45,892 nt of DNA from contig NZ_JAKLSQ010000006.1 in NCBI RefSeq assembly GCF_022014495.1, positions 1 to 45,892 of the forward strand, read 5' to 3'. Numbering within the stretch: the stretch's first letter is position 1; each line of letters begins with the position of its first letter. A program made the translations under genes and the position numbers. This document shows positions 36,866-40,450 of the stretch, in pieces. This stretch comes from Sandaracinobacteroides sayramensis. Lineage in GTDB: Bacteria; Pseudomonadota; Alphaproteobacteria; Sphingomonadales; Sphingomonadaceae. The notes beneath the pieces are model-generated. The model made no database searches, was not told the DNA's origin, and saw nothing but the letters and a program-made list of their open reading frames with translations.

Positions 36866-36942
36866 GGGCCTGTAGCTCAATTGGTTAGAGCAGGCCGCTC
36901 ATAACGGCTTGGTTGCGGGTTCGAGTCCTGCCGGGCCCACCA
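36866..36942 (+). tRNA. tRNA-Ile2(CAT), possibly tRNA-Met
   Basis: Complete cloverleaf: acceptor GGGCCTG/CGGGCCC, D stem GCTC/GAGC, anticodon stem GGCCG/CGGCT around CTCATAA (anticodon CAT), T stem GCGGG/CCTGC, encoded ACCA. The first pair is G-C, so it is not the initiator. The GAGCAGGCCGCTCATAACGG segment and the TTGG variable region resemble E. coli tRNA-Ile2 more than elongator tRNA-Met; if so, its C34 is modified to lysidine by TilS. Confidence 0.9.
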
Positions 36943-38695: not shown

Positions 38696-38759
38696 TTATC
38701 CGGACTTAGATTTGGACCGTCGTTCAGGAGACCTCACGCCCACTCTGTCGACAAAAGAA

Positions 38760-38783
38760 AAGGCCCGCCTTACAGCGGGCCTT
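38760..38783. terminator. Terminator-like hairpin
   Basis: AAGGCCCGC-CTTACA-GCGGGCCTT, a perfect 9-bp stem. On the minus strand it continues into TTTTCTTTT; on the plus strand the tail is TTAAAT. It probably ends integrase transcription and insulates the Abi-type operon that begins 110 bases later. Apart from this and the short palindrome, the 290-base gap shows no gene. Confidence 0.7.
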
Positions 38784-38894
38784 AAATATCCTTAGACGAT
38801 GAGGGGGGGCGTTAGCCCGCATTCTCAAAGCCGATGGGCCTTATATAGGGGTAGTGACGCCACCGTCAATACCACGCTGGCAGGACACTAAAAG

Positions 38895-39557
38895 TTGCCC
38901 TTCACTCAGGATGAGCTTCACGAGCTGCCCACCGTCATCTCTGCGCCCCGCTTCGCCACCTACTTGCAGGCTATGGGCAATGACCGAGAGAAGGCTCTCG
39001 CACTCTATGAATGGAACCTGGACCTTTCGTCGGCCCTGATCGTCCCGCTCCAGGTGTGTGAAGTGGCGGTTCGTAATGGAATCGCCGAAGCGATCGAGCA
39101 CGTCCACGGCGCGAACTGGCCGTGGAACAATGGCTTTATCCGAAGCTTGCCGCGTCCGAAAAGCAAGTTCCGATATAACCCGGCGAATGATCTTCAATCC
39201 TGCGCAGCGTCCTTGCCCACGACCGGAAAAATCATAGCTGAACTCAAATTCGCGTTCTGGGAGAACATCTTCACCGTTGGCCAGGACAGCCGTATCTGGA
39301 ATGCGCACTTTCGCGCCTGCTTTCCCGGTGCGCCGCTAGGTCAGCCGATTCCGCAATGCCGAGCCACGGCTTATGCGGACCTCCAGATCATTCGACGTTT
39401 GCGGAATCGAATCGCTCATCACGAGCCCATCTTCAGCCGTAACATCGCCGACGACTATCAACGGATTCATGACATGATCGCGTGGCGCAGCCAGGTGGCT
39501 GCGGCGTGGATGGATCGAAAGCAGGCAGTCCTTACTCTACTCGCGGTGAAGCCATGA
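38895..39557 (+). CDS. HEPN-type Abi-like protein
   Basis: A 220-residue protein of the Abi_2 / AbiD-AbiF-like type. The helix LQVCEVAVRNGIAEAIEHVHG and the late LQIIRRLRNRIAHHEPIF are characteristic; the latter holds the HEPN RNase motif R-N-x3-H (Arg170, Asn171, His175). HEPN proteins of this kind cleave RNA and act as toxins in phage defence. The start appears to be TTG at 38895, since the next Met lies at residue 27, inside the conserved region. It overlaps the next gene by four bases (ATGA). Position straight after the integrase in a conjugative element fits a defence cargo. Function is inferred from family. Confidence 0.8.
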   Translation: MPFTQDELHELPTVISAPRFATYLQAMGNDREKALALYEWNLDLSSALIVPLQVCEVAVRNGIAEAIEHVHGANWPWNNGFIRSLPRPKSKFRYNPANDLQSCAASLPTTGKIIAELKFAFWENIFTVGQDSRIWNAHFRACFPGAPLGQPIPQCRATAYADLQIIRRLRNRIAHHEPIFSRNIADDYQRIHDMIAWRSQVAAAWMDRKQAVLTLLAVKP

Positions 39558-40450
39558 CCGGGAAGTTCTCCCCATTTGTTATCAAGGCGCTGGTCGACAC
39601 CATTACGGGCGGCTCCGGAAACGACAACACGCCAGCGATCGGAATCTATCGCTCGGGTCCAAAAATCGAGCAGTTCTTTCTCGATTGCGGCCTCGACATG
39701 CGCATCGGCCCAAACTCGCGCGTGCCGGCCACGACAGATTTTCTGCGCCGGACGGCCAATCATCATGACGGCAATGGCGATACCTATATCACCCGGACCA
39801 TCGAGAAGGTGTGCGATCCCCGCGAATATCTGGCGGAGCCTGACAAAGCCACCGCTGTCCGCGAGCATCTCAACAAGGCGCTGGCGCCAGAGGGACTGTC
39901 CGTCGTCATCGTTGGCGGGAAAGCCATTCTGACTGAACGGCAAGGTTCTGGTGGGATTGTCGAGCCTTTCATCAAGAAGGTGGCGACGCTGGATTTTGAT
40001 ACCGTCCAGATGGAGATCGCCCGTGCCCTCCCAAACCTGGAGAGCGACCCGGAAGACGCGGTAACAGCAGCTTGCTCGCTGATCGAAGCGGTGTGCCGAT
40101 CGATCCTTGTCGAACTCAAGGTGCCGCTGCCGCCAAAGAAGGACATCGATGGGCTGATCCGCGCCGTTCAGGGCCCGTTGGGCTTGTCGCCGGGTCGATC
40201 GGATCTTCCACCCGAGGTAGAAGCCGACATCCGCCAAACGCTTAGCGGTCTCACCTCCGTTACCAAGGGTATTGGCGCGTTGCGGACGCACGGTGGGGAT
40301 GCGCATGGGCGCGAGAAGGGCTTTCGCCGCATCGACGCTCGGATTGCACGTCTTGCGATCAATGCGGCGAGTACGCTGGCGCTGTTTCTGATCGAAACGT
40401 GGGAACGCCAGGAGCACCGCACCTTACCTCAACATGCTGAGGCATCCTGA
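39554..40450 (+). CDS. Abi_C-domain protein
   Basis: A 298-residue protein whose C-terminal third matches the abortive-infection C-terminal domain: AACSLIEAVCRSILVEL, a hydrophobic L-x-P-G loop, TLSGLTSVTKGIGALR, GGDAHGR and LAINAASTLALFLIET. R-x6-H (Arg244 to His251) lies in the GDAHG segment, so it may be a second HEPN-like site. The N-terminal 140 residues (starting MTGKFSPFVIKALVDTITGG) are a separate, unrecognised alpha-beta region. Start ATG at 39554 overlaps the HEPN gene stop, so the two are made together, perhaps as a toxin and its partner or as a two-part effector. Confidence 0.78.
   Translation: MTGKFSPFVIKALVDTITGGSGNDNTPAIGIYRSGPKIEQFFLDCGLDMRIGPNSRVPATTDFLRRTANHHDGNGDTYITRTIEKVCDPREYLAEPDKATAVREHLNKALAPEGLSVVIVGGKAILTERQGSGGIVEPFIKKVATLDFDTVQMEIARALPNLESDPEDAVTAACSLIEAVCRSILVELKVPLPPKKDIDGLIRAVQGPLGLSPGRSDLPPEVEADIRQTLSGLTSVTKGIGALRTHGGDAHGREKGFRRIDARIARLAINAASTLALFLIETWERQEHRTLPQHAEAS

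Follow-up and report, generated by a model that had tools for sequence, protein, structure and literature searches.

The window analysed here is a 45,892-nt stretch of contig NZ_JAKLSQ010000006.1 from Sandaracinobacteroides sayramensis, and it carries a mobile cassette at 38752-40450, a single homology block by blastn, which includes a predicted RNA gene and two protein genes designated as P1 and P2. P1 (38895-39557, + strand) encodes a 220-aa Abi_2/AbiF-type HEPN protein from a TTG start, and P2 (39554-40450, + strand) encodes a 298-aa Abi_C HEPN protein that has an N-terminal region of its own. The ATG of P2 overlaps the stop codon of P1 in an ATGA junction; an initial annotation, based on the sequence alone, had described these two open reading frames (ORFs) and their overlap, and the coordinates were confirmed. 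Both proteins bear HEPN RNase signatures and folds. The AGGA at 38882-38885 (+), read in the sequence, is the likely ribosome binding site of P1, and AGGA also precedes the TTG of P1 in six related loci (L003, L005, L020, L022, L048, and L052). The RNA gene lies 5' of P1 on the minus strand (38753-38835, about 83 nt with both ends inferred) and was absent from the initial annotation. It is a candidate RNA antitoxin of P1.

The core of the RNA (38800-38827, -), as folded with RNAalifold, consists of an outer stem UGAG/CUCA and an inner hairpin GGGC-UAAC-GCCC. A Rho-independent terminator at 38750-38783 (-) has a stem of 10 pairs (38783-38760) followed by TTCTTTTGTC. The predicted promoter (38840-38869, -) is composed of a -35 box TTGACG at 38869-38864 and a -10 box TATAAG or TATATA within 38847-38840; it has 10 of 12 matches, and 0.003 of shuffles were equally good. 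A coding reading of the RNA was rejected, as L005, L010, L020, and L022 have ACG in place of the AUG of the window core. A known Rfam RNA near P1 was rejected as well, with sub-threshold matches only (isrJ, 26.8 bits versus 37), and nothing in the window but two tRNAs reached the Rfam gathering score.

Noncoding DNA of 141-143 nt moves with P1 in L005-L010, L020, L022, L052, and L048 (blastn), and the homology block begins at 38752-38754 instead of at the start of P1. Aligned between the window and the fetched loci with blastn, the cassette starts at these positions and ends at 40420-40450 in L005-L010, L020, and L052, while L048 has the noncoding DNA and P1 and lacks P2. These and all other locus counts describe the sampled sets only, because the loci were retrieved by their similarity to the query. 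On the opposite strand, 5' of most P1 relatives down to approximately 35% identity, boxes resembling TTGACA and TATAAT are found together with a short core and a terminator hairpin. The exceptions at P1 identity of at least 35% are L086, which has another hairpin, and L081 and L090, which have a split gene and other sequence there. The P1 relative of L081 and L090 is split across two frames, and the place of the RNA gene reads by eye like the start of a transposase.

The RNA alignment includes 25 sequences, picked because the core was visible and containing near-copies; L029 was left out because its core looked unlike the others. With no structure supplied, RNAalifold recovers from the 25 RNAs both stems of the core (outer stem and inner hairpin) as well as the terminator. 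The seven core pairs are paired in 98.8% of cells, and the pairing falls to 44-56% when one side of the core is slid. Changes on both sides are seen in five of the seven pairs (equalled by 4 of 500 shuffles) and in 29 cells, with the cells representing sequences and not events, against 9.1 in shuffles (0 of 500 as high). When eight RNAs were folded singly, z was -2.47 or lower in seven and -0.85 in L106; the best fold of the L048 RNA has a different outer stem. The promoter score averaged over the 25 loci is 9.96 of 12 versus 7.48 in shuffled sequences, and the best of 300 shuffled sets reached 7.84.

The link between the RNA and P1 was analysed with two models. Model R2 was trained on 10 loci with P1 identity of at least 50% and applied to 16 more distant P1 loci outside the training, which near-copies shrink to about 11 to 12 distinct RNAs. 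At E < 0.01, it recovers the opposite-strand RNA 5' of P1 in 14 of the 16, and a 15th was recovered at 0.055. No match below 0.01 was obtained from 19 still more distant Abi_2 loci. Among 15 P2 loci without P1, there was one, in L054 (R1 23.0 bits, R2 24.5 bits), which is positioned just beyond the apparent stop codon of an integrase and was judged as chance. The R2 matches below 0.01 total 18; in addition to these 14 and L054, two are antisense to RNA loci (L082 and L026), and the last is at another place in L124. Model R1 was built from all 25 RNAs, including that of the window, which it matches at 38756-38838 (-) with 78.1 bits. In a scan of 299 genomes, the top six R1 matches (57-78 bits, the next 33) all lie 5' of a P1 relative. 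As all six are training sequences, the scan speaks for specificity only; matches of 34 bits or less were not inspected.

Several points qualify the evidence for this RNA gene and for its link to P1. The R2 test loci were chosen where the RNA had already been seen by eye. R1 matches at E up to 0.01 were found in 172 of the 299 genomes; because of this, and because the model contains the terminator hairpin, only the gap in bit scores was used. In the region, terminator-like sites number 2 versus 2.2 in shuffles, which is no excess, and the window promoter is missing from the listing of a strict general promoter scan, so the case for the RNA gene rests on conservation. By these computations, a conserved structured RNA gene exists and is linked to P1.

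P1 passes the Pfam Abi_2 cut-off narrowly (27.6 bits versus 25.6), which agrees with the family proposed by the initial annotation. PADLOC names it PD-T4-5 (6.9e-13) and AbiD (5.9e-6); a literature search for PD-T4-5 together with Abi_2 found none. The RN-x3-H motif noticed earlier at residues 170-175 is present, and R170, N171, and H175 are invariant across the alignment of 36 sequences, one of them from the window. Model comparison with PbAbiF (PDB 8vz6) revealed that P1 shares the AbiF fold, while the best E of a PDB sequence search with the P1 profile was 0.29, taken as chance. P1 is most likely a HEPN ribonuclease of the Abi_2/AbiF fold.

Clostridioides difficile AbiF is toxic, requires R202 and H207, and is neutralised by the RNA RCd22, which binds it; RCd22 has two motifs and is upstream of the toxin and co-transcribed with it (PMC12373285). 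AbiF was proposed as the ancestor of Cas13 (PMC12373285; PMC12737573). The P1 locus resembles the AbiF RNA toxin-antitoxin systems (PbAbiF and AbiFCd/RCd22) in the Abi_2 HEPN protein, its fold, and its RN-x3-H motif, as well as in a short gene for a structured RNA on the 5' side of the protein gene. It differs in the 220-aa protein, the single RNA core, the RNA's own promoter-like boxes, and the predicted status of the RNA function, and in that its RNA is on the opposite strand, whereas RCd22 is on the same strand. The RNA also has no match to Rfam abiF (RF03085): a search at E up to 10 gave none near P1, and none passed the cut-off in the 10 genomes with P1 relatives, and likewise none in control genomes.

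P2 clearly passes the Pfam Abi_C cut-off (74.4 bits versus 24) and is named AbiJ by PADLOC (1.1e-14), with the profile match covering residues 101-286; this supports its earlier classification. The R244-x6-H251 motif is located as initially described, with H251 kept in all 25 aligned sequences, one of them the window's own, and R244 in 24. A PDB sequence search with the P2 profile gave a best E of 0.32, taken as chance. The first 100 residues of P2 have no Pfam match at E up to 1, the Pfam coverage of AbiJ N-terminal types not having been checked, and this N-terminal region is likely a sensing or docking part. P2 is similar to the AbiJ/Abi_C family in its C-terminal Abi_C HEPN domain; unlike AbiJ, its first 100 residues are outside the AbiJ profile match, and it follows several other defence genes.

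The cassette probably represents two joined defence units, an AbiF-like RNA toxin-antitoxin module composed of P1 and the divergent RNA, and P2 as a separate HEPN RNase. P1 most likely acts like the C. difficile AbiF because of its fold, its motif, and the neighbouring RNA, and the antidote of P1 is likely the RNA rather than P2. We infer a mechanism in which the divergent small RNA would be transcribed, bind P1, and neutralise its toxicity by holding it inactive. Infection would be the trigger: the RNA would be lost or titrated, and P1, once released, would cut RNA and growth would stop. P2 would act as a separate HEPN RNase, the last gene behind several kinds of defence genes and often translationally coupled, and most likely adds a second RNase layer. 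Because the RNA core has promoter-like boxes of its own on the other strand, the doses of antitoxin and toxin would be set separately. If so, P1 would be a small proteobacterial AbiF relative with a second arrangement of RNA control, a separate divergent promoter, and its locus would be a compact model of RNA-partner recognition. Annotation of the RNA family would be possible next to Abi_2 genes that are today labelled hypothetical.

P2 relatives are found directly behind nine kinds of front genes, Abi_2 included, three joined by ATGA and six by gaps of 3-38 nt; the front genes were classed by Pfam or PADLOC, with no census of matched control genes. Besides Abi_2, the front genes are AbiEii with an ATGA overlap (L019), AbiEii-like (L011-L014), GmrSD (L017), HsdR-like (L047), HmaC-like (L034), PDC-M36A-like (L035), T5orf172/MUG113 (L067), REase_III with a weak match (L054), and an RN-x3-H protein recognized by motif only, with an ATGA overlap (L046 and L179). 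An annotated PD-(D/E)XK nuclease gene stands in front of P2 in L183. The P2 HEPN domain occurs with changing partners. At L019:3465-5894, an AbiEi-like ORF (by reading, unscanned), AbiEii, and P2 overlap in one run, which is perhaps a three-gene variant of AbiE.

It is possible, if rather doubtful, that P2 is a guard, watching the front enzyme through coupled translation or contact and firing once this enzyme is blocked. The nine kinds of front genes (the REase_III-like one weak) and their ATGA overlaps or short gaps are in favour of this. However, no recognised defence gene precedes P2 in L018, L021, L055, L066, and L180-L182, and co-location in defence islands would yield part of the pattern. 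In L093 and L094, a small unscanned ORF is present 114 nt upstream of P2. PrrC/RloC-type guard RNases ride with a restriction system, and the likeness of P2 to them is in this idea, not in compared sequences. Were P2 a portable guard, an unrecognised second layer would exist in some defence islands. A broader proposal, which is unlikely, is that P2 is a general guard module behind unrelated systems, here guarding an AbiF-like RNase with a divergent RNA antitoxin, and that phages may counter with lone copies of the RNA. P2 would then have been added behind AbiF-like, AbiE, GmrSD, type I restriction, and other systems through exchange at the junction of the genes.

Ordinary cargo, that is, two unrelated Abi genes joined by chance in a mobile element, is another possible, if rather doubtful, explanation, and the separate distributions of P1 and P2 are consistent with it. 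Against it, the joined block is retained at 76-95% DNA identity in records of seven genera (Sphingobium, Sphingomonas, Novosphingobium, Acetobacter, Gluconobacter, Komagataeibacter, and Gluconacetobacter), and the ATGA junction is also formed with the other front genes in L019, L046, and L179.

A role of the RNA as a cis-acting or antisense regulator, instead of an antitoxin that binds the protein, is distinctly unlikely. Its opposite-strand position 5' of P1, with promoter boxes 25-55 nt before the P1 start in the window, would fit such a role. Yet the RNA is directed away from P1 and does not overlap its coding region, and the compensatory core changes across P1 relatives of 35-100% identity are unexplained by a terminator alone. 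The described AbiF RNA binds its protein (PMC12373285).

The initial annotation regarded P1 and P2 as one coupled pair; the pair is kept in near relatives, but it is no stable unit beyond them. The P2 search of genome_contigs led to 20 loci, and in 10 of them (L003-L010, L020, and L022) P2 is preceded by P1. The junction is ATGA in nine of these 10 and ATGC in L004, which is cut by the contig end and where the P1 frame continues. L015 and L016 have an intact P2 with only the last 83 nt of P1 left, and the remaining eight have other front genes or none. P1 is frameshifted beside an intact P2 in L009, and P2 is frameshifted (L020) or cut after 79 residues (L022) beside an intact P1. In 196 genomes of the order, P1 relatives were found in 11 and P2 relatives in 12; both are present in the window's own genome, where they are neighbours, and in G024, where they are not. 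Across the family (249 genomes), the numbers are 13 and 12, with both only in the window's own genome. Of the five plasmid records with P1 identity of at least 68%, one is also among the P2 matches listed (40 of 168), and P1 precedes P2 in one (H1) of the best eight P2 plasmid records (H1-H8). That P1 and P2 are one toxin-antitoxin or co-effector pair, with P2 as antidote or partner, is improbable: the 10 loci, record H1, and the single block in several taxa point to it, but P1 at 85% identity occurs without P2 in L048, P2 occurs without P1 in L011-L014, L017-L019, L021, L046, and L047, either gene stays intact beside a damaged neighbour, and P2 retains a full RNase motif. Since each gene occurs without the other, P2 as the antidote, which had been considered initially, was rejected as the principal explanation.

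Two further classes of systems were compared with the preferred arrangement of an RNA-controlled P1 and a separate P2. Unlike in HEPN-MNT (type VII) systems, no MNT nucleotidyltransferase was found among the six window genes scanned. The ToxN fold differs from HEPN. Type III systems (ToxIN, AbiQ, and CptIN) have a protein RNase neutralised by RNA (PMC12373285), the proposed likeness to the P1 locus. Unlike them, the RNA at P1 has one core without repeats, on the strand opposite to the toxin, and the protein has the HEPN fold; tandem RNA repeats before the toxin are not seen, as R1 identifies a single copy in the window on that strand.

The position between an integrase and conjugation genes, recognized already in the initial annotation, was corroborated by a tyrosine integrase gene upstream of P1 (37222-38604) and TrbI downstream of P2 (42514-43803). 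ORFs past the window read as conjugation genes (by reading, with no domain scan), and P1 and P2 look to be housed in a conjugative element. The tRNA-Met gene directly before the integrase gene (36866-36942) is likely the attachment site, and no second copy of its end, as an attL/attR repeat, was found in the 73.5-kb contig. An 8-kb part of the element is matched at 94.8% by a contig of Sphingobium faniae (blastn).

Pattern scans of viral_contigs for the RNA gave 7, 3, and 0 matches, corresponding to nine distinct loci: L173 is a known P1 locus, L170 and L174 are leads, and the rest are chance-like by eye. Apparent lone RNA cores are seen at L174:8219-8253 (+) and L170:773-809 (-), with the same loop sizes and outer stems of 5 and 8 pairs. 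No Abi_2 match was found in these two contigs by a search run without a positive control. The L174 core scores only 13.8 bits with R2, and this lead depends on very few pattern matches; the two cores are possible phage decoys of the RNA antitoxin.

A shorter, different divergent hairpin RNA (CCCCGG...CCGGGG) is observed 5' of more distant Abi_2 genes, with promoter-like boxes in several. This second shape was seen at 13 loci (L028, L085, L086, L087, L092, L110, L111, L116, L120, and L132-L135), and its covariation energy is weak (-0.3) for sequences aligned after picking by eye. Adjoining the Abi_2 gene in L110, positions 2414-2481 correspond to the Rfam DUF3800-IX RNA (48.1 bits, cut-off 36.8).
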